From assembly GCA_030045295.1 (NCBI GenBank), contig JASIGD010000337.1, positions 1 through 12,201 on the forward strand: DNA of 12,201 nt, in the 5' to 3' direction. The DNA comes from Streptosporangiaceae bacterium. GTDB taxonomy: Bacteria; Actinomycetota; Actinomycetes; Streptosporangiales; Streptosporangiaceae. The notes below the pieces were generated by a model. It did no database searches, was not told the DNA's origin, and worked only from the letters and a program-made list of their open reading frames with translations. Every line of letters starts with the position of its first letter. Position 1 is the stretch's first letter. The position numbers were made by a program, and so were the translations under genes. This document shows, piece after piece, positions 3,532-12,121 of the stretch.

Positions 3532-3882
3532 TCACGGGGCTTCGTCCGCCCGGGCTTCCTCGACGGTGAGCTCGGCCGCGGGATCGGCTTCCAGGCGTTC
3601 GTCGGGGATCGGCTTGCCGCTGCGGACGGACCGGCCGTAGGTGCCGTCGTCCAGCCGGTGCAGGGCACGCTCGATGGCGTCCAGCCGGTCGCGCAGGCTC
3701 TCCGCGATAGCGTCGTCCTCGCCCTCCTCGGTGAGCGCGAGACCGGCATCTTCGATGTCTTCCGCCTCGCTGTCCACTTCCGCCACACGGTCATCGCGGC
3801 CCGCGGCCTCGGTGTCCTTGAGCAGGCTCCGCACCTCGTCGCGCTCGGCGACGAGCAGGGTACGTGCCCGGTCGGTGTCCAT
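3532..3882 (-). CDS. DksA/TraR-family protein lacking the zinc-finger cysteines
   Basis: 116 aa, acidic. The N-terminal half is a predicted coiled coil rich in Glu, Asp and Arg (residues 1-75, with AIESLRDRLDAIERAL-like heptads). The C-terminal part aligns with the DksA/TraR zinc-finger region (GTYG ... GKPIPDERLEA ... VEEA). DksA-type proteins reach RNA polymerase through its secondary channel and change promoter response, usually with ppGpp. The four finger cysteines are all replaced: the first pair reads RSVRS (Ser, Ser) and the second pair TVEE (Thr, Glu), so no zinc can be held in the usual way. The ATG at 3882 has a good Shine-Dalgarno (AGAGGA, 7 nt away); longer upstream reading in the same frame is a shadow of the permease gene. 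It begins 23 bp after the permease stop, so the two are very likely co-transcribed. Confidence 0.85.
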   Translation of the reverse strand: MDTDRARTLLVAERDEVRSLLKDTEAAGRDDRVAEVDSEAEDIEDAGLALTEEGEDDAIAESLRDRLDAIERALHRLDDGTYGRSVRSGKPIPDERLEADPAAELTVEEARADEAP

Positions 3883-3905
3883 CCGGTCGTCCTCTCTAGT
3901 CCGTT

Positions 3906-5117
3906 CTAGTCCGTGTGGGACGCGTGCGCGTCCATGTGGCCGTCGGGCGAGCCGTGGCCGTCGGGCGAGCCGTGGCCGTCGGGCGAGCCGCCCATCATGC
4001 GCAGCATAGCGAGCCCGCCGGTGCGGACGAATCGAATGACCAGGGCGGCCGCGAGGATCAGGAAGACGATATTCAGCCAGGTGGTGTAGTTCCAGGACAC
4101 GCCCTGGTCGGGGATCCTGGCGTCGGCGGGGTCCGGGATCAGGCCCAGCCCGCCGAAGACCAGCTCGACGATGTACCCGGCCGCGACCATCGTGGCGTAG
4201 AACGTGCCGAGCAGGAACAGGGCCATCCGGGCTCCGTAGTACTTCCGGTAGATGTTCAGGATCGGCGCGATGATCAGGTCGGCGAAGATGAAGGCGATCA
4301 CGCCGCCGAAGCTGATGCCGCCCTTCCACAGCACCACCGCCAGCGGCACGTTCCCGATCGAGCACACGAACGAGATGATGGCCACGACCGGGCCGATGAG
4401 CGGCCCCCATACCTTCGCCGCGAGCGGGTGCCCGGTGATGAAGAAGCTCCGCCAGAAGCTGTCGGGGACCCAGGCCGCGATGGCCCCGGCGATGAGCAGG
4501 CCGACGACCAGATCGCGGATGATGGCGGCCCATTCCATCACGAATACGTGCGCGACCGACGTGTAGCCGTCGCGGGAGAACAGGCGGCTCGTGAACGAGC
4601 CGGGCCGCTGGACGGACATGTCCATCGCGGCGTGGCCCTCCATCGAGCCCGCGATTCCGCGGTCGGCCTGCAACCGGGCCGCGCTGACCAGGCGCTCCCG
4701 CAGCAACAGCCGGAACAGCACCGCGAGCAGGACGATCATCACCGGGCCGCCGGTGAACTCGGCCACGGTGAACTGCCAGCCCATGAGCAGCGCCAGGATC
4801 ACTCCGAGCTCGATCACCAGGTTCGTCGAGGCGATCTCGAACGCCATCGCCGAGGTGAAGGAGGCCCCCTTGCGGAACAGGGACCGGGCCAGGGCGACCG
4901 CGGCGTACGAGCAGGACGACGACGCGGCCCCGAAACCAGTCGCCACCGCCAGAGTCCGCGGCCGGTCGTCGCCGAGGAGCCGCGCGACCGTGGACTTCCT
5001 GACCACGGCCTGGATCACCGCCGACAGCGCGAACCCGAAGATCAGCGCCCAGGTGATCGCCCACGTCATCGACCAGGTGATCGTCAGCGCGTGCACGACG
5101 GCCTGAATGCTGCTCAC
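3906..5117 (-). CDS. ArsP/DUF318-type permease, probable metal or metalloid exporter
   Basis: 403 aa from GTG 5117; integral membrane protein with roughly 8-10 hydrophobic segments. It matches the ArsP_1/DUF318 permease family (ArsP, SO_0444-like), with two pseudo-repeated halves. Each half carries a Cys-Ser motif before a KG(A/G) loop: SSSCSYAA (about 67-74) and VCSIGNVPLA (about 251-260). A cytoplasmic-looking loop (about 140-190) contains MEGHAAMDM, and the tail is three GSPDGH repeats followed by a His-rich end, all suited to soft-metal binding. Family members export organoarsenicals or have been linked to copper/zinc; the exact substrate here is inference. The start is uncertain: GTG 5117 overlaps the Shine-Dalgarno GGGGAGG (5123-5117), while an in-frame ATT at 5108 sits 8 nt behind it. 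A longer reading up to 5276 is unlikely because it would run through the ABC gene start. A CsoR-like operator lies just upstream. Confidence 0.87.
   Translation of the reverse strand: MSSIQAVVHALTITWSMTWAITWALIFGFALSAVIQAVVRKSTVARLLGDDRPRTLAVATGFGAASSSCSYAAVALARSLFRKGASFTSAMAFEIASTNLVIELGVILALLMGWQFTVAEFTGGPVMIVLLAVLFRLLLRERLVSAARLQADRGIAGSMEGHAAMDMSVQRPGSFTSRLFSRDGYTSVAHVFVMEWAAIIRDLVVGLLIAGAIAAWVPDSFWRSFFITGHPLAAKVWGPLIGPVVAIISFVCSIGNVPLAVVLWKGGISFGGVIAFIFADLIIAPILNIYRKYYGARMALFLLGTFYATMVAAGYIVELVFGGLGLIPDPADARIPDQGVSWNYTTWLNIVFLILAAALVIRFVRTGGLAMLRMMGGSPDGHGSPDGHGSPDGHMDAHASHTD
3936..3989 (-). repeat. Three perfect 18-bp tandem repeats encoding (GSPDGH)x3
   Basis: Three identical in-frame copies of an 18-bp unit (plus-strand GTGGCCGTCGGGCGAGCC) lie at 3936-3953, 3954-3971 and 3972-3989. 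They encode the His-rich tail of the permease. Perfect identity at the DNA level points to recent slippage, so copy number may vary between strains. Confidence 0.95.
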
Positions 5118-5140
5118 CTCCCCGGGATCCCGGCGGACAT
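5114..5140 (-). other. Possible 8-codon leader ORF coupled to the permease
   Basis: ATG at 5140 opens an 8-codon frame (MSAGIPGR) that ends in a TGA overlapping the permease GTG as GTGA, the usual layout of translational coupling. The operator's G-run precedes the ATG by 4 nt and could act as its ribosome binding site. It would only be in the mRNA if transcription starts upstream of 5140; the TATTAT -10 candidate (5144-5139) would start later and exclude it. A perfect 12-bp palindrome, CCGGGATCCCGG (5122-5133), lies inside it. Confidence 0.25.
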
Positions 5141-5141
5141 A

Positions 5142-5158
5142 ATACCCCCCGGTGGTAT
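5142..5158. promoter_or_regulatory. CsoR/RcnR-type metal-repressor operator (17-bp dyad)
   Basis: The 17-bp site begins ATACC, has a C/G-rich centre and ends GGTAT; 14 of 17 positions match its own reverse complement. Such ATACC-C-run/G-run-GGTAT dyads are typical of CsoR/RcnR-family repressors, which release DNA when Cu(I), Ni/Co or sulfane sulfur is bound. On the minus strand it sits just behind a TATTAT -10 candidate (5144-5139), where a bound repressor would block the permease promoter. On the plus strand CGGACA (5134-5139) and TATATA/TATAAC (5156-5163) could form a second promoter toward the ABC genes overlapping the same site. No repressor gene is in the window. Confidence 0.6.
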
Positions 5159-5198
5159 ATAACGCCGCGTCAGCGCCCGGCCTGTCGCGCTGCCACCG

Positions 5199-5204
5199 TA
5201 GACT
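5199..5204 (+). promoter_or_regulatory. -10 element for leaderless ABC operon transcript
   Basis: TAGACT lies 7 nt before the GTG at 5212, the spacing expected when the transcript starts at or next to the start codon. There is no Shine-Dalgarno sequence before this GTG, which supports leaderless translation. No clear -35 is seen. Confidence 0.55.
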
Positions 5205-5211
5205 CGCCTGC

Positions 5212-6162
5212 GTGAGCACCGGCAAGGCTGCGGCGGACCCGGCGGCGCCTGCCGTCGAGGTCAGCGGGCTGGTCAAGCGCTACGGTCAGACGGCGGCCGT
5301 CGACGGGCTTTCGCTGACGGCCGGGCGCGGTGCCGTGACCGGCATCCTGGGGCCGAACGGCGCGGGCAAGACCACCACGATCGAGATCTGCGAAGGCTAC
5401 CGGCGGCCCGACCAGGGAACGGTGCGAGTGCTCGGGCTGGACCCGGCGCGCGACGCCCGTGCGCTGCGGCCGCGGGTCGGCGTGATGCTGCAGTCCGGCG
5501 GCATTCCCCCGTCGGTGCCCGCCGCGGACTACCTGACGCTGCTGAGCCGTTTTCATACCACCCCGGTCGAGGTCCCGGTGCTGCTCGACCTGGTCGGGCT
5601 CACCACGGTCGCGCGCACTTCCTACAAGAGGCTGTCGGGCGGCCAGCAGCAACGGCTGTCCCTGGCCGCGGCGATCGTCGGCCGCCCGGAGCTGGTCTTC
5701 CTCGACGAGCCTACGGCCGGCATGGACCCGCAGGCACGCCACGCCACCTGGGAGCTGATCACGCAGCTGCGCGCCGCGGGCGTAAGCGTCATCCTCACCA
5801 CGCACTTCATGGAGGAAGCCGAACGGCTCTGCGATTACGTCGTCATCATCGACCACGGCCAGCTGATGTCCGCGGGCACGCCGGAGCAGCTCACCGGTAC
5901 GGTCGGCCAGCTGAGGTTCCGCGCCGAAGCGGGCCTGGATACCGAGAGCCTGCTCACCGTGCTGCCGCCGGCCAGCGCGGTGAAGGAATCGCCGGCCGGC
6001 CATTACGTGATCGAGGTCCACGGCGCGGTGGACCCGTTGCTGCTCGCCGCGGTGACCGCCTGGTGCGCGGAGCGGGGTGTGCTGGCCAACAGCCTGCGCA
6101 TCGAGAGCCGCACGCTGGAGGACGTGTTCCTTGAGCTCACCGGGAAGGAACTCCGCCCGTGA
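5212..6162 (+). CDS. ABC transporter ATP-binding protein
   Basis: 316 aa cytoplasmic ATPase subunit. Seen: Walker A GPNGAGKT (47-54), Q-loop glutamine near 94 (VMLQSGG), signature LSGGQQQR (141-148), Walker B LVFLDEP (161-167) with D-loop GMD, and the H-loop histidine near 198 (TTHF). The C-terminal third (about 220-316) is the extension usual in DrrA/CcmA-like exporters of the ABC-2 class. GTG 5212 is preferred over the further upstream in-frame GTG at 5152 because of the -10 element placed 7 nt before it and because homology begins near residue 15. Its stop overlaps the start of the permease (GTGA). In mycobacteria and streptomycetes a similar ABC pair lies beside the suf genes and ctaA, so this is probably the conserved neighbour; the substrate is not known. 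Confidence 0.93.
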   Translation: MSTGKAAADPAAPAVEVSGLVKRYGQTAAVDGLSLTAGRGAVTGILGPNGAGKTTTIEICEGYRRPDQGTVRVLGLDPARDARALRPRVGVMLQSGGIPPSVPAADYLTLLSRFHTTPVEVPVLLDLVGLTTVARTSYKRLSGGQQQRLSLAAAIVGRPELVFLDEPTAGMDPQARHATWELITQLRAAGVSVILTTHFMEEAERLCDYVVIIDHGQLMSAGTPEQLTGTVGQLRFRAEAGLDTESLLTVLPPASAVKESPAGHYVIEVHGAVDPLLLAAVTAWCAERGVLANSLRIESRTLEDVFLELTGKELRP

Positions 6163-6950
6163 CGCTGGCGTCTGCCGAGACGGTGTTCGCGCCCGCTCCG
6201 GGGGCGGCCCCGATGCGCAGGATGATCGCCGCGCAGGCCGCGCTGGAAGCGCGGACGCTGCTGCGGAACGGCGAGCAGCTCCTGCTCATACTGTTCATCC
6301 CGTTGCTGCTGCTGGCCGCGTTCGGCCTCGAGCCGCTGGTGAACTTCGGGGCGGGGCTGAGCCGGGTCGACTTCCTCACGCCCGGGATCATCGCGCTGGC
6401 GGTGATGTCGACCGCATTTACCAGCCAGGCCATCGCGACCGGCTTCGAGCGGCGATACGGCGTGCTGAAGCGGCTGGGGGCCACGCCGCTGTCGCGCGGC
6501 GGCCTGATCGCCGCCAAGACCACCACCGTGATCGGGGTGGAATTGCTGCAGAGCGTGCTGATCCTCGCCCTCGCCCTGGCCATCGGCTGGCGGCCGAACG
6601 CCAGCCCGGCCGCGATCGTGGTCGCTCCGCTGCTCATCATGCTCGGTACCGCCGCCTTCAGCGGGCTCGCCTTGCTGATGGCGGGCACGCTGCGCGCCGA
6701 GGCCACCCTGGCCGCGGCCAACCTCATCTACATCCTGCTGCTCGGCCTCGGCGGCGTGGTGTTCCCGCTGACCAAGTTCCCCGCGGCCGCGCGGCCTGCC
6801 CTCGAGCTGCTGCCCACCGGTGCGCTGTCCACCGGCCTGCGCGACGTCTTGCAGCACGGGGTGGTCTTCCCGGTCGGGAATACGGTCACGCTGGTGATCT
6901 GGGCCGCGGTAGCGATCGTCTCCGCCGCGCGGACGTTCAGGTGGGACTGA
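6159..6950 (+). CDS. ABC-2 type transporter permease
   Basis: 263 aa membrane subunit partnering the ATPase just upstream, whose stop it overlaps by 4 nt (GTGA), so translation is coupled. About six hydrophobic segments are visible, starting with LLLILFIPLLLLAAFGL after a short cytoplasmic N-terminus. The RRYGVLKRLGATPLSRGGL stretch is the coupling-helix region typical of ABC-2 permeases (DrrB/NatB-like). It ends in a short cytoplasmic tail, FRWD. Together the pair forms an exporter of unknown substrate. The position before ctaA suggests, but does not prove, a link to heme, iron-sulfur or respiratory biogenesis. Confidence 0.9.
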   Translation: MTLASAETVFAPAPGAAPMRRMIAAQAALEARTLLRNGEQLLLILFIPLLLLAAFGLEPLVNFGAGLSRVDFLTPGIIALAVMSTAFTSQAIATGFERRYGVLKRLGATPLSRGGLIAAKTTTVIGVELLQSVLILALALAIGWRPNASPAAIVVAPLLIMLGTAAFSGLALLMAGTLRAEATLAAANLIYILLLGLGGVVFPLTKFPAAARPALELLPTGALSTGLRDVLQHGVVFPVGNTVTLVIWAAVAIVSAARTFRWD

Positions 6951-7861
6951 GGGACTCCGCGACCTGGAAGGCGGCCACACGGGACGCGGATAAGCCCGGC
7001 TCGCACGGCCAGGCCCGGGCGGTGCTGCCGGCCGTCATGGTCCTGTCCGGCATCGTCTCGGTTCAGTTCGGGGCGGGCCTCGCCGCCCGCCTGTTCGATC
7101 AGATCCCGCCCGCGGCCGTGACCGGCCTGCGGCTGTGGACCGCGGCGCTGGCCATGACCGCGATCTCCGGGCGCGGCTTCGCCCGCTCCGTCCGCGGCCT
7201 GGCGGAGCGGAGGGCGTTGACCGACACGGCCGTAGCGGTGGCGTTCGGCATCGCGCTCGGGGTGATGAATTTCTCCATCTACCAGGCGTTCGCGCGGATC
7301 CCGCTCGGGATCGCGGTCACCATCGAATTCCTCGGCCCGCTGGCCGTGGCCGTAGCCGGGTCACGGCATCTCCGGGACGTCGGCTGGGTGGTGCTCGCGG
7401 CGGCCGGGGTGGTGCTGCTCACCCGGGGCGGTCACGGTCACCTCGACCTGGTCGGGGTGATCTTCGCCGGCGTGGCCGCGGCCTGCTGGGCCGCTTACAT
7501 CGTGCTCAGCTCGGCGACCGGCCGACGCTTTCCCGGTTCGGCCGGCCTGGCGATCGCCATGGTGGTGGCCGCGGTCCTGGTCACCCCGCCCGCCGTCGTG
7601 GCAGGGGGCGACGCCATGTTCCGCCCCGCCGTGCTGGCCACCGGAGCCGCGATCGGCCTGCTGTCGTCGGTGATCCCCTACCGGCTGGAACTCGAGGCGC
7701 TGCGGCGGATGCCCATGCGGCTGTTCGGCGTGTGGATGAGCCTGGAGCCTGCGGTGGCGGCGCTGATCGGGCTGGTGATGCTGAGCCAGCAGCTCAGCGT
7801 CGTCGAATGGCTCGCGATCGGCTGCGTGATCATCGCGTGCGCGGGAGCGGCGCAGGGTTAG
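6941..7861 (+). CDS. EamA-family transporter (RhtA-like exporter)
   Basis: 306 aa, about ten hydrophobic segments arranged as two EamA (drug/metabolite transporter) halves. VTIEFLGPLAVAVAGSR ends the first half and SVIPYRLELEALRR ... MSLEPAVAALIGL lies in the second; these resemble E. coli RhtA, an inner-membrane exporter of threonine and homoserine, which has a similar length. The start is taken as GTG 6941, overlapping the permease gene by 10 nt; it has no Shine-Dalgarno sequence, so coupling is likely. GTG 7022 or ATG 7037 would drop a polar N-terminal leader of about 30 residues and remain possible. It is the last gene of the ABC operon. Whether it works with the ABC pair is unknown; amino-acid export is inference from family. 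Confidence 0.85.
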   Translation: MGLRDSATWKAATRDADKPGSHGQARAVLPAVMVLSGIVSVQFGAGLAARLFDQIPPAAVTGLRLWTAALAMTAISGRGFARSVRGLAERRALTDTAVAVAFGIALGVMNFSIYQAFARIPLGIAVTIEFLGPLAVAVAGSRHLRDVGWVVLAAAGVVLLTRGGHGHLDLVGVIFAGVAAACWAAYIVLSSATGRRFPGSAGLAIAMVVAAVLVTPPAVVAGGDAMFRPAVLATGAAIGLLSSVIPYRLELEALRRMPMRLFGVWMSLEPAVAALIGLVMLSQQLSVVEWLAIGCVIIACAGAAQG

Positions 7862-7975
7862 CCTCGGGGGACGGTGTTAGCCCTGGCTCAAGCAACGGGA
7901 TGATCACACCGCTTCTCACTCTGCGTCCGTGATCCATGACACAAAGGCGCAGTCCGGGATCTGGCCGGGTCCGGT

Positions 7976-8035
7976 AAGGGGCTCGTTGCGCCAACGACAC
8001 CCTCAGGTGGGGCACGTTGCGCCAACGAGCCCCTT
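7976..8035. repeat. 60-bp interrupted inverted repeat with two direct 14-bp copies
   Basis: Outer arms AAGGGGCTCGTTG (7976-7988) and CAACGAGCCCCTT (8023-8035) are perfect 13-bp complements. Pairing resumes inward with CAACG/CGTTG after a 3-nt mismatch. CGTTGCGCCAACGA occurs twice in the same orientation, 7984-7997 and 8015-8028, exactly 31 bp apart (about three helical turns), and each copy is itself a small dyad (CGTTG-CGC-CAACG). It lies in the 263-bp gap between the EamA gene and ctaA. It could be a bidirectional terminator without a U-tract, a pair of repressor sites, or a dispersed palindromic repeat. Confidence 0.8.
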
Positions 8036-8072
8036 CCTGCTCGCCGTGACCATCACGAAAATACGGGCCAGA

Positions 8073-8099
8073 GCCCGGGGGATGCCTTTCCCCCCGGGC
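8073..8099. terminator. Strong G/C hairpin upstream of ctaA, possible terminator
   Basis: GCCCGGGGG (8073-8081) pairs perfectly with CCCCCGGGC (8091-8099) around a 9-nt loop. There is no U-tract after it in either direction. It ends 14 bp before the ctaA -10 element, so it may insulate ctaA from the operon upstream or act as a protein site. Confidence 0.45.
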
Positions 8100-8112
8100 C
8101 GCCTCGGCGCTC

Positions 8113-8118
8113 TACCAT
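8113..8118 (+). promoter_or_regulatory. -10 element for leaderless ctaA transcript
   Basis: TACCAT is followed by 6 nt and then GTG 8125. The AAGGG in between is too close to the codon to serve as a ribosome site, so a leaderless start is the simpler reading. The -35 region is only a C-run. Confidence 0.55.
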
Positions 8119-8124
8119 AAGGGC

Positions 8125-9201
8125 GTGCCCGCGCGACTGTCCCGGGGGGACGATCCCCCCCAGAGCCCCCCTGATCCCGGGGGAAATGGCCGTTCGCCCA
8201 AGCCTCGTTGGCCCCGCCTGGCCAGGTTGGCCAGCCCCGTGCTGTCGCCGACACCTCGGTCGATGCGCCGGATCGCGCTGGTCGGAGTGATCGCCGATAC
8301 CGTGATCATGTCCACCGGCGCGGCGGTCCGGCTCAGCTCGTCTGGCCTCGGCTGTCCCGACTGGCCGCGATGCAGCGCGTCGGACATCGTGGCCAGCAAG
8401 AATGCCGGCCAGACGCTGCTCAACACGTGGATCGAGTTCAGCAACAGGCTGCTCAACTTCCCGCTGGTCATCATCACCGTGATCGTCTTCATCGCGGCCT
8501 GGAACTTCCGGCCGATGGGGAGCAGGCGGCGTGACCTGGTCTGGCTGGCGGCGGCCCAGCCGGCCGGGGTGGTGGCGCAGGCGGTGATCGGCGGGATCGT
8601 CGTGCTGACCAAGCTCAACCCGGCCGCGGTCTCGGTGCATTTCCTGGTGTCCGCGTCGATCGTGGCCGCCGCCGTCGTGCTGTACGTCAGGTGCGCCGAG
8701 GGCACCGACCCTCCGCGTACCGTCGTCCGGCCTGACCTCCGCGTGCTGGCCGGCGCCCTGGTCGCGGTCACGTGCGCGATGCTGGCCGCGGGCACGGTGG
8801 TGACGGGGACCGGCCCGCTGGCCGGCAACGCGGTCGCGCCCCGGTACAAGCTGCCCCTGGAAGGGGTCACCCAGCTGCACGCTGACATCGGCTGGCTGAT
8901 GGCCGGCCTGGCGGTCGCGCTCGTGGTGGGACTGCGGCTGTCCGGCGCGCCGCCGCGCGTGCTGCGGGCCGGCTGGATCATGATCGCGGCGCTGGGTATC
9001 CAGGGCGCGCTCGGCTACATCCAGTACTTCACTCACCTGCCGGCCGGACTGGTCTGGGTCCACGTGACCGGGTCGATGATCGTCTGGATCGCGGTGCTCC
9101 TGCTGTTCTTGGCCATGCGCGACCGCGGCCCCCTGGTCACGCCGCCGCCGGGGCCCGTGCAGGCCGCACCCCGCAGGCAGCCGGAGCCACTGGACCGATA
9201 G
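8125..9201 (+). CDS. ctaA: Heme A synthase (COX15/CtaA family)
   Basis: 358 aa membrane enzyme that oxidises the C8 methyl of heme O to a formyl group, giving heme A for cytochrome aa3 oxidase. Eight hydrophobic segments in two four-helix halves follow a 48-residue polar, Pro/Arg-rich N-terminus. Seen: GLGCPDWPRC with the cysteine pair C77/C83, IEFSNR with the catalytic-type glutamate E104, and heme-ligand candidates H172 (VHF), H252 (LHAD) and H313 (VHV). The first-helix histidine of the EXXHR motif of Bacillus CtaA is Asn here (N107), a change I associate with other actinobacterial forms. GTG 8125 is chosen from the -10 element 6 nt ahead; ATG 8263 would start at the first helix. A GGGGGGA/TCCCCCC hairpin (8144-8160) lies just inside the coding region. 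The partner heme O synthase gene ctaB, often nearby, is absent here. Confidence 0.92.
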   Translation: MPARLSRGDDPPQSPPDPGGNGRSPKPRWPRLARLASPVLSPTPRSMRRIALVGVIADTVIMSTGAAVRLSSSGLGCPDWPRCSASDIVASKNAGQTLLNTWIEFSNRLLNFPLVIITVIVFIAAWNFRPMGSRRRDLVWLAAAQPAGVVAQAVIGGIVVLTKLNPAAVSVHFLVSASIVAAAVVLYVRCAEGTDPPRTVVRPDLRVLAGALVAVTCAMLAAGTVVTGTGPLAGNAVAPRYKLPLEGVTQLHADIGWLMAGLAVALVVGLRLSGAPPRVLRAGWIMIAALGIQGALGYIQYFTHLPAGLVWVHVTGSMIVWIAVLLLFLAMRDRGPLVTPPPGPVQAAPRRQPEPLDR

Positions 9202-9204
9202 GCT
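9199..9204 (+). promoter_or_regulatory. -10-like element overlapping the ctaA stop
   Basis: TAGGCT begins with the TAG stop of ctaA and is followed by 6 nt and GTG 9211, the same layout as the leaderless starts before the ABC operon and ctaA. It could drive the transketolase remnant and tal-zwf, or be left over from the promoter of a deleted gene. Confidence 0.4.
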
Positions 9205-9210
9205 CCTACC

Positions 9211-9384
9211 GTGAGCATTCAGTCCGGACCCTGGCGGCTGTTCGTGGGAAAGGCGGGCGCTTCAATTGGAGTAGACCACTTCGGCGCCTCGGCCCTTTAC
9301 CAGAAGATCTACCAGGAGTTTGGCATCACCGCGGAGCGGGTACCCGCCGCCGCACGCGACAGTCTGGCCCGGGTCCGGGCCTAG
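9211..9384 (+). pseudogene. tkt: Transketolase C-terminal remnant (57 codons)
   Basis: Open frame of 57 codons from GTG to TAG. FVG ... [10 protein letters not shown] ... [19 protein letters not shown] is the C-terminal end of transketolase, where full proteins (about 650-700 aa) read VG ... (I/V)xxxHFGASA ... FGxTxExVxxAAxxSL. The similarity extends back to VSIQSG (compare VSIEAG/VSVEAG), so it starts at or within four codons before the GTG; an in-frame TAG, the ctaA stop, lies just upstream. The thiamine-diphosphate-binding and pyrimidine domains are gone, so it cannot be an active enzyme. It sits where full-length tkt is found in related actinobacteria, 34 bp before tal. The promoter-like element and GTG leave open that a short peptide is still made, or that the stretch survives as the leader of tal. 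Confidence 0.85.
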
Positions 9385-9418
9385 CCCGGCCCAGGTACGT
9401 AGGGAAGGGAAAGCAACG

Positions 9419-10522
9419 GTGTCAGTTGACGTTCTCGGGCAGCTATCCGAGGCCGGAGTGTCGGTGTGGCTGGACGACATCAGCCGTGACCGGCTGCGCA
9501 CCGGCAACCTGCAGATGCTCATCGATGACCTGCACGTGGTCGGGGTGACCTCCAACCCGACGATCTTCGCCAAGTCGCTGTCCTCCGGGGACGCCTACGA
9601 CCAGCAGATCGCCGATCTGAAGACCCGCGGCGTGACCGTGGACGAAGCGTCCCGGATGATCACGACGTACGACATCCGATGGGCCTGCGACGTGTTCCGG
9701 CCCGTCTACGAGCGGACGGGAGGTCTCGACGGCCGGGTGTCGCTCGAGGTGGATCCCCGTCTGGCCAATGAAACCGAGAAGACCATCGCCGAGGCGCGTG
9801 CGCTGTGGTGGATGGTGGACCGGCCGAACCTGCTCATCAAGATTCCCGCGACCCTCGAGGGCCTGCCCGCGATCACGCGGTGCATCTCGGAAGGGATCAG
9901 CATCAACGTCACGCTGATCTTCGGGCTGGAGCGGTACGGGCAGGTCATCGACGCGTATATGGAGGGCCTGGAGCGGGCCGCCGCGGCCGGGCAGGATCTG
10001 TCCCGGATCCGCTCGGTGGCGTCGTTCTTCGTCAGCCGGGTGGACACCGAGGTCGACCAGAGGCTCGACAAGCTCGGCACTCCGGAGGCCGAGGCGCAAC
10101 GCGGCAAGGCGGCCGTCGCGAACGCGAGGCTGGCCTACGAGCTGTTCGAGCAGCGGGTCGCCACCGACCGCTGGAGGGCGCTGAGCGCCAAGGGAGCGAA
10201 CATCGAGCGGCCGCTGTGGGCCTCCACCTCGGTCAAGGACCCGTCGTTCGGCGACACCAAGTACGTTGTCGAACTGGTGGTGGCCGACACGGTGAACACG
10301 ATGCCCGAGAGCACCATCCGGGCCACCGCCGACCACGGCCACCTGCTCGGCGACACGGTGCACGGCACCTACGACGCGTCCCGGCAGGTCTTCGCCGACC
10401 TGGAAGAGCTCGGCATCGAATACGACGACGTGGTACGCGTCCTCGAGGTCGAGGGCGTGCAGAAGTTCAAGGCATCGTGGAACGAGCTGCTCGACACGAT
10501 CAGAACAAAGATGGGGCTCTGA
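9419..10522 (+). CDS. tal: Transaldolase
   Basis: 367 aa cytosolic enzyme that moves a dihydroxyacetone unit between sugar phosphates in the non-oxidative pentose phosphate branch. It is the long actinobacterial form (Tal type B/2-like): [13 protein letters not shown] and [11 protein letters not shown] near the N-terminus, the Schiff-base lysine in LLIKIPAT (K141), [22 protein letters not shown] and ASTSVKDP further on. GTG 9419 is chosen because AAGGGA lies about 9 nt ahead and homologues begin close to this point; a longer in-frame reading from 9320 would overlap the transketolase remnant and is rejected. The zwf ATG follows its stop with no gap, so the two are coupled. All recognisable catalytic motifs are intact, in contrast to tkt upstream. 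Confidence 0.96.
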
Positions 10523-12121
10523 ATGACAGAAGAACCGGGGAGCCCCGAGGGACTCGCCCCGGCCAATCCGGGCGTCATCGCGGGACTCGACGACATCTCC
10601 GGCCCGCGCAACCCGCTGCGCGACCCGCGGGACCGGCGCATCCCCCGGGTGGCCGGGCCGTGCGTGCTGGTCATGTTCGGGGTCACCGGGGACCTGGCCC
10701 GCAAGAAGCTGATGCCGGCCGTCTATGACCTGGCCAACCGGGGCCTGCTGCCGCCCGGGTTCTCGCTGGTCGGCTTCGCCCGCAGGGACTGGGAGCACGA
10801 GGATTTCGCCCAGGTCACGTACCAGGCGGTGAAGGAATACGCCCGCACGCCGTTCCGCGACACGGTATGGGAGCAGCTCAGCGAGGGCATCAGGTTCGTT
10901 CCCGGCGAGTTCGGCGACGACGACGCGTTCGACCGGCTGGCCGCGACGGTCAGGGAACTGGATGAGGAGCGGAGTACCGGCGGGAACTACGCGTTCTACC
11001 TCTCGATCCCGCCGAAGTCCTTTCCCACCGTCGTGCAGCAGCTCAAGCGCAGCGGCCTTTCTGACTCGCACGGTAATGGCTGGCGGCGGGTGGTGATCGA
11101 GAAGCCGTTCGGTCACGACCTGGCCAGCGCGCGGGAGCTGAACGCGATCCTGGACGCGGTCTTCCCGCCGGAGGCGGTCTTCCGCATCGACCACTATCTC
11201 GGCAAGGAGACGGTGCAGAACATCCTGGCGCTGCGGTTCGCCAACGAGATGTACGAGCCGATCTGGAACCGGGGTTTCGTGGACCATGTCCAGATCACGA
11301 TGGCCGAAGATATCGGGATCGGCGGGCGGGCCGGGTACTACGACGGCATCGGGGCCGCCCGCGACGTGATCCAGAATCACCTACTGCAGCTCCTCGCGCT
11401 GACCGCGATGGAGGAGCCGGTCGCATTCGACGCGGACTCGCTGCGGATGGAGAAGGTGAAGGTGCTCTCCGCGGTCCGGCTGCCCAGCGATCTGGCCACG
11501 GGTACCGCGCGCGGGCAGTACGCGGCCGGCTGGCAGGGCGGCCGGCAGGTGAAGGGATACCTGGAGGAGGACGGCATCCCCGCTGACTCACGTACCGAGA
11601 CGTACGCGGCGCTGCGGCTCGGCGTCGATACCAGGCGCTGGGCGGGGGTGCCGTTCTACCTGCGCGCGGGCAAGCGGCTGCCGCGCCGGATGACGGAGAT
11701 TGCGCTGATCTTCCAGCGCGCGCCGCATCTGCCGTTCTCCGCCACCGACACCGAGGAGCTCGGCCAGAACGCGCTGGTGATCAGGATCCAGCCGGACGAG
11801 GGCATCACCGTCAGGTTCGGCTCGAAGGTGCCGGGCACGGCCATGGAGGTCAGGGACGTGAACATGGACTTCGCCTACGGCGAGTCGTTCACCGAATCCA
11901 GTCCCGAGGCCTACGAACGGCTGTTGCTCGACGTCCTGATCGGGGACCCCCCGCTGTTCCCCCGGCAGCAGGAGGTCGAGCTCGGCTGGCGGATCCTCGA
12001 CCCAGTGGAGGACTTCTGGGCCTCGTACACCAAGCCTGAGCAATATACGGCCGGTTCGGCGGGTCCAGCGTCAGCGGACGCGATGATGGCAAGGGACGGG
12101 CGCGCATGGCGCCGACTGTGA
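10523..12121 (+). CDS. zwf: Glucose-6-phosphate 1-dehydrogenase
   Basis: 532 aa cytosolic enzyme that oxidises glucose 6-phosphate to 6-phosphogluconolactone while reducing NADP, the entry step of the pentose phosphate pathway. Seen: the dinucleotide-binding stretch MFGVTGDLARKKL (about 51-63), the EKPFG motif (193-197), the substrate-binding RIDHYLGKE (221-229), and FVDHVQI with the likely catalytic histidine near 255. The ATG follows the tal TGA directly; there is only a weak GGGG-rich site before it, so translational coupling is likely. About 45 residues precede the nucleotide-binding fold, slightly longer than the Streptomyces homologues I recall. In actinobacteria the enzyme often needs OpcA, which seems to start 64 bp downstream. 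Confidence 0.97.
   Translation: MTEEPGSPEGLAPANPGVIAGLDDISGPRNPLRDPRDRRIPRVAGPCVLVMFGVTGDLARKKLMPAVYDLANRGLLPPGFSLVGFARRDWEHEDFAQVTYQAVKEYARTPFRDTVWEQLSEGIRFVPGEFGDDDAFDRLAATVRELDEERSTGGNYAFYLSIPPKSFPTVVQQLKRSGLSDSHGNGWRRVVIEKPFGHDLASARELNAILDAVFPPEAVFRIDHYLGKETVQNILALRFANEMYEPIWNRGFVDHVQITMAEDIGIGGRAGYYDGIGAARDVIQNHLLQLLALTAMEEPVAFDADSLRMEKVKVLSAVRLPSDLATGTARGQYAAGWQGGRQVKGYLEEDGIPADSRTETYAALRLGVDTRRWAGVPFYLRAGKRLPRRMTEIALIFQRAPHLPFSATDTEELGQNALVIRIQPDEGITVRFGSKVPGTAMEVRDVNMDFAYGESFTESSPEAYERLLLDVLIGDPPLFPRQQEVELGWRILDPVEDFWASYTKPEQYTAGSAGPASADAMMARDGRAWRRL

Follow-up and report, generated by a model that had tools for sequence, protein, structure and literature searches.

The window, by which we mean the whole stretch of 12,201 nucleotides analyzed here, carries a frame of only 57 codons between the gene for heme A synthase (ctaA) and that for transaldolase (tal), and its presence there raises the questions of what it is, how it came about and why it is still open. 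The earlier note on this DNA had read it as the tail end of a transketolase gene (tkt), left behind by a deletion that had also removed ctaB, and kept for the expression signals that it carries. To answer these questions, we compared the locus with those of related genomes, with protein family profiles, and with short proteins related to transketolase. The features of the window to which we refer are the following:

8113..8118, + strand: putative -10 box TACCAT, 6 nt 5' of the ctaA GTG, a spacing of the leaderless type
8125..9201, + strand: ctaA (heme A synthase), stop codon TAG at 9199-9201; Pfam PF02628, E 4e-23
9199..9204, + strand: putative -10 box TAGGCT, overlapping the ctaA stop codon, 6 nt 5' of the GTG of the remnant
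9211..9225, + strand: native tkt start GTG AGC ATT CAG TCC, matching the tkt starts of L002 and G193 at equal distance from ctaA
9225..9228, + strand: deletion junction, uncertain by 2-3 nt; about 637 codons missing relative to the tkt of G193
9229..9384, + strand: last 51 tkt codons and stop codon TAG, matching the ends of PF22613 and TIGR00232; colinear with codons 643-693 of the G193 tkt
9402..9410, + strand: Shine-Dalgarno-like stretch GGGAAGGGA before tal, its function putative
9419..10522, + strand: tal (transaldolase), start codon GTG; PF00923, E 1e-81; NF002881, 4e-162
10523..12121, + strand: zwf (glucose-6-phosphate dehydrogenase); PF00479 and PF02781

The 57-codon frame (GTG to TAG, 9211-9384, 57 residues) is confirmed as a tkt remnant at an ancestral ctaA-tkt-tal-zwf locus. 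Residues 7-40 of its product correspond to positions 80-113 of the 113 positions of PF22613 (Transketolase_C_1), a match that runs to the last position of this profile (30.3 bits, E 5e-7), and the product aligns with positions 607-650 of the 654 positions of the bacterial transketolase family NCBIfam TIGR00232, with 26 bits against a family cut-off of 682 bits. This comparison with transketolase C-termini, which the earlier note had suggested as a check, upholds its view that the frame contains the end of transketolase, but the frame is not just a C-terminal tail: its first 5-6 codons (GTG AGC ATT CAG TCC ..) are, by comparison with relatives, the native tkt N-terminus, and both ends of the ancestral gene are therefore retained. 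Judged from these alignments, the remnant is the native tkt start (GTG and about 4-5 further codons) followed in the same frame by the 51 terminal codons. Searching the 57-aa product against Pfam gave no match to the TPP-binding N-terminal domain (PF00456) or to the pyrimidine-binding domain (PF02779), and the C-terminal domain itself is incomplete, with positions 80-113 of 113 of PF22613 only. Because of these missing domains, a product from which nearly all of the enzyme has gone cannot, on its predicted sequence, be a functional transketolase. The Pfam domains of ctaA (PF02628), tal (PF00923) and zwf (PF00479, PF02781) cover the full profile or nearly so, and the description of tal and zwf as intact has held; opcA falls outside the window. 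The stop codon of the remnant lies 34 nt upstream of the tal start (GTG 9419).

Within the family to which G002 belongs, the genome that best matches the 57 residues is G193, a colinear sister of the window (79-85% DNA identity in four blocks, from window position 3541 to 12117). In this genome, the ctaA stop codon is followed by a 9-nt spacer, a GTG codon and then a full tkt of 693 codons. At the junction, the window reads ..CTGGACCGATAGGCTCCTACC GTG AGC ATT CAG TCC, joined directly to GGA CCC TGG.., and G193 reads ..CTGGACCGATAGGCTCGTGCC GTG AGC ACA CAG GCC AGT.. at the same site; in L002, where the ctaA stop and the 9-nt spacer are the same, tkt begins with GTG AGC AAT CAG TCC. As the comparison with these relatives shows, the remnant is accounted for by a single deletion inside tkt that preserved the frame and removed about 1.9 kb (about 637 codons, tkt codons ~6-642). 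Measured against the full tkt of G193, the estimate that about 90% of the gene is missing was correct, and the sister comparison that the earlier note had proposed placed the endpoints: the native start is kept, the junction lies at 9225..9228, and G193 codons 643-693 are retained. The suspicion that tkt might never have been here fails, since this sister carries the full gene at the locus. Microhomology at the junction, read by eye, amounts to about 2 nt and is not informative.

The proposal that ctaB was lost and that the deletion ran from ctaA into tkt was not borne out. Since the ctaA-tkt boundary is the same in G193 and L002, which possess a full tkt, the deletion is internal to tkt and does not proceed from ctaA, and since only 9 nt separate ctaA from tkt in both of them, there was no ctaB at this site to lose. 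A deletion spanning ctaA, ctaB and tkt was hence rejected: the boundary is ancestral, and G192 has the same boundary without tkt. The start of the frame within 12 nt of the ctaA stop had been taken as the sign of one deletion; a single deletion it was, but the spacing is ancestral. A search for tal in the named genomes yielded 80 loci, and the tkt tail is present at 78 of them, 77 times within a frame of 681 aa or more and once in a frame that starts at a contig edge; no tail match was found at the two other tal loci (L061 and L065). At L001 (5431-6690, - strand), a reverse frame of 419 aa lies between ctaA and tkt, where the group of the window has 9 nt.

The locus has been reduced further in G192, which belongs to the same genus as G193 and in which the search of 341 family genomes found no match to the remnant tail. 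Its tal locus (L144, contig G192:C374) is colinear with the window, and tkt is completely gone between the start region and tal; read without a frame filter, the DNA still shows the ctaA stop with TAGGCT, then 6 nt, a GTG and a frame of 21 codons whose end lies 11 nt into tal. A transketolase elsewhere in G192 was not found: the highest score among its PF00456 matches is 139 bits, compared with 430 and 438 bits for the two transketolases of G193. We looked at its 3 PF00456 and 6 PF02779 matches for a split transketolase and rejected this candidate, taking the matches, as a matter of judgement from frame length and score, for DXS and dehydrogenase E1-type proteins. Phosphoketolase as a substitute for tkt in G192 was rejected as well; no match was found in G192, nor in G339, and four of the six genomes searched have one. 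G192 is a 4.3-Mb draft with fewer marker matches than G193 (PF00133, 8 vs 11; PF00009, 9 vs 11), counts that are a rough sign of completeness only because one gene can give two matches; the absence of transketolase and of phosphoketolase is therefore not proved, and it may reflect a draft gap or be real.

G193 possesses a second complete tkt-tal pair on another contig (G193:C277; L112, L159) and a third tal gene (G193:C127:2942-3976, L145). Its second tkt shares 91% identity with a tkt of G338, a genome that likewise carries two tkt genes, whereas the regions around the first tkt of the two genomes share 78% DNA identity. This difference could mean that the second tkt was acquired by transfer or that one of the contigs is of foreign origin; by tetranucleotide distance, the half of the G193 contig that bears the second tkt does not stand out as foreign, and the other half is the more distant. 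We regard it as improbable that a group of Streptosporangiaceae-like actinobacteria is losing transketolase, with some members (those like G192, and perhaps the organism of the window) retaining tal, zwf and ctaA without any transketolase. If this were true, both the supply of erythrose-4-phosphate and the pentose phosphate pathway of such members would depend on a route that is yet to be described.

Is this a single event? Since our tail search was restricted to proteins of similar length, its 54 matches are short proteins. In 22 of them, the Tkt N-terminus is fused to the C-tail (two-piece score gain of 37 or more), whereas a control search of the same type, made with the 57 C-terminal residues of Zwf, found the Zwf N-terminus in none of 55 matches (best gain 17; Fisher p 1.3e-8), zwf being the sole control and a gene that may be less dispensable than tkt. 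A profile built from 15 remnants (A1) retrieved 2,556 proteins, of which the best 120 were listed. Among the matches listed from both tkt searches, 47 of 127 distinct short proteins are such fusions, as judged by mosaic alignment with at least 10 N-terminal residues; the protein of the window is not one of the 47, since its N-terminal piece is shorter than 10 residues. Grouped by hand, they fall into 41 junction sets, some of which lie one residue apart, and they are found on contigs ranging from under 1 kb to 189 kb (P0014) and 872 kb (P0118). Five are mosaics of three pieces (P0003/4/11, P0032, P0118, P0127, P0148), and the middle piece is in the native frame in all five, for which the chance expectation is (1/3)^5 = 0.004, with one middle piece only 5 residues long. 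Searches for short proteins detect only open frames of limited length, and both in-frame fusions and junctions close to the two ends are therefore favored by design. Two remnants (those of the window and of G192) were read as DNA; nearly all others were compared as protein sequences, outside the context of their neighboring genes.

In the family of G002, 335 of 341 genomes gave a match to the tail and 338 of 341 to profile A1; at the order level, 342 of 345 genomes did so, mostly the same genomes as in the family set. Among the matches listed in the family (341) and order (345) genomes there is no remnant; these matches are full frames, except for one of 401 aa in G106. Many remnants bear the name 'transketolase' in their source records. 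A different kind of remnant is P0006 (7 contigs, up to 47 kb), in which a short tkt tail follows an unfamiliar start, VINPPLPL. Taken as database sequences, these proteins indicate that tkt appears to have been hollowed out repeatedly in related lineages. A survey of open-access papers by their titles and abstract openings found no transketolase remnants of this kind, and what is new here is this repeated hollowing in related sequences, together with the complete loss at the locus in the genus-mate G192.

A feature shared by four of the compared loci lies at the start of the old gene. The hexamer TAGGCT, whose TAG is the ctaA stop codon, stands 6 nt before the GTG in the window, G193, G192 and L002. 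According to excerpts of two papers, TA signals about 12 bp before start codons mark leaderless genes, which make up about a fifth of the genes in Actinobacteria (PMC3160421; PMC4895711), and the remnant, with its TAGGCT at 9199-9204, has a TANNNT motif at this distance. In the window, this motif occurs at the exact 6-nt spacing before 3 of 337 plus-strand ATG or GTG codons (GTG at 1552, 8125 and 9211), two of which are the starts of ctaA (TACCAT) and of the remnant. It is found at the tkt start in 2 of 27 readable relatives (L002 and L111) and most of them are without it; 82 loci had been tried, and the statement is limited to the 27 that gave a start by pattern. A scan for promoters of the sigma-70 type found none at 7800-9700. 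From GTG 9211 to TAG 9384, the open frame leads from the possible start to near the tal GTG at 9419. Read on in the frame of the remnant, window positions 9403-9426 encode GRESNGVS, and the TGA that comes next ends 11 nt into tal; this peptide is also the end of P0013 and P0006, whose frames therefore also seem, from the protein data, to run into tal. On the sequences compared, it is the start region (ctaA stop, TAGGCT, 6 nt, GTG) and the open frame that are conserved.

With these observations in mind, we propose that the remnant is kept as a short translated leader of the tal operon, a reading to which we give an even chance. From the ancestral ctaA-tkt-tal-zwf locus, a single internal deletion fused the native start with the 51 final codons; as tkt decayed at the locus, deletions that left a frame open from the tkt start towards tal would have been retained. 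The transcript probably begins at the old tkt GTG or right beside it, as predicted for the leaderless type from the TAGGCT 6 nt upstream, so that the ribosome would initiate at this GTG and the remnant would be the first translated frame of the operon message. The unbroken frame is predicted to carry the ribosome towards the tal start, by which the message would stay translated and tal and zwf would be expressed. Selection would then act against any deletion by which the frame is broken or the start lost; we infer such selection for an open frame from the frames that are found. Since tal has a Shine-Dalgarno-like site of its own, coupling may be unnecessary.

A neutral origin is a serious rival to the leader model, and a possible one, even if we hold it to be somewhat doubtful. 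Here tkt would have been redundant owing to a second tkt elsewhere, as in G193 with its second tkt-tal pair, and an in-frame deletion fixed recently by chance would have left a remnant that decays without a role. A single deletion is in frame by chance in a third of cases, the sizes and junctions of the remnants vary widely, and residues K14 and P45 of the window's protein occur in none of the 14 other rows of A1. Against chance alone stand the five multi-piece mosaics, all in the native frame (with the caveat that only open frames are detectable), and the start region, which is kept even in G192. Compared with G193, the dN/dS ratio of the tail (51 codons) is 0.32, close to those of tal (0.40) and ctaA (0.37) though above that of zwf (0.14). 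Such a value would count against a strong claim of decay, but it may only be a sign that the deletion is recent. The same ratio, being below 1, and the fact that the tail is the intact end of the C-terminal domain could be taken to speak for a functional small protein, e.g., one that binds the intact transketolase dimer; with N-terminal parts that differ between remnants and no tail kept in G192, we hold this to be extremely unlikely.

The tail could instead be kept for a promoter or another signal for tal in its DNA, as the earlier note had suggested for the scar as a whole. The overall GC3 of 79 tkt genes is 0.95, compared with 0.86-0.87 over their first 50 codons and 0.91 over their last 51 (79 of 84 loci were used for this analysis, with 5 dropped by a match and frame filter). 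GC3 falls at both ends of tkt, the ends that the remnants retain. The drop at the 3' end and the low values of the tails of the window (0.78) and of G193 (0.71) are what a signal might leave behind, as is the dS of the tail (0.25), which is lower than those of tal (0.38), ctaA (0.43) and zwf (0.44). The drop in GC3, however, is no smaller at the 5' end, synonymous conservation over the last 51 codons shows no excess in the 79 intact tkt genes (-0.008 compared with a mean of +0.059), the region from 7800 to 9700 has no sigma-70-like site, and G192 keeps tal without the tail. For the C-tail, the idea of retained expression signals is therefore unsupported, and we judge it unlikely. There remains the question of whether the junction is real, given that the source of the window is a single 12.2-kb contig and that no remnants are among the listed matches of the searched genomes, apart from the full loss of tkt in G192. 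The remnant belongs to a protein cluster of 3 sequences on 3 contigs (P0001), the longest of which has the length of the window; clusters were built at about 90% identity, so that the three members may differ or share an assembly, and the three contigs may come from assemblies that are not separate. A second variant of 57 aa, 96% identical (P0002), has the same junction on another contig of 13.8 kb. Because of the three contigs and this second occurrence, an isolated assembly error appears unlikely as the source of the remnant. Other remnants lie on contigs of up to 189 and 872 kb, and the zwf control gave no fusions among its 55 matches; a misassembly or chimera that hides a full tkt at this site is accordingly a very remote prospect.

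The usual view of gene remnants is that each arises once and has a broken frame. In the present case, a gene for a central enzyme has apparently been lost repeatedly with its start and an open frame kept, and from such a natural deletion series one could learn to what extent an operon depends on translation of its first gene. The series also points to lineages that must either obtain the transketolase step by other means or do without it, a loss that the name 'transketolase' given to many remnants in the source records hides from annotation.

Among known systems, the closest is the actinobacterial tkt of the tkt-tal-zwf operon itself, with which the remnant shares the locus, the start codon, the spacer to ctaA, the last 51 codons and the order of tal and zwf, while about 637 of 693 codons, and with them nearly all domains, are missing. 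Like an in-frame pseudogene or gene remnant of an operon, the window has one internal deletion, start and stop codons that are kept and intact flanks; unlike it, tkt remnants show many junctions, some of them eroded stepwise with the frame staying open. With translated leader ORFs and translational coupling, the remnant has in common a short frame just before tal, which in G192 ends 11 nt inside tal and may do so in P0013 and P0006; it differs in its derivation from an enzyme gene and in its stop codon 34 nt before tal, and coupling is our proposal. Leaderless genes of Actinobacteria, as described in excerpts of the two papers cited (PMC3160421; PMC4895711), resemble the remnant in the TANNNT motif about 12 bp before the start codon, whereas the transcription start of the remnant is a predicted one.
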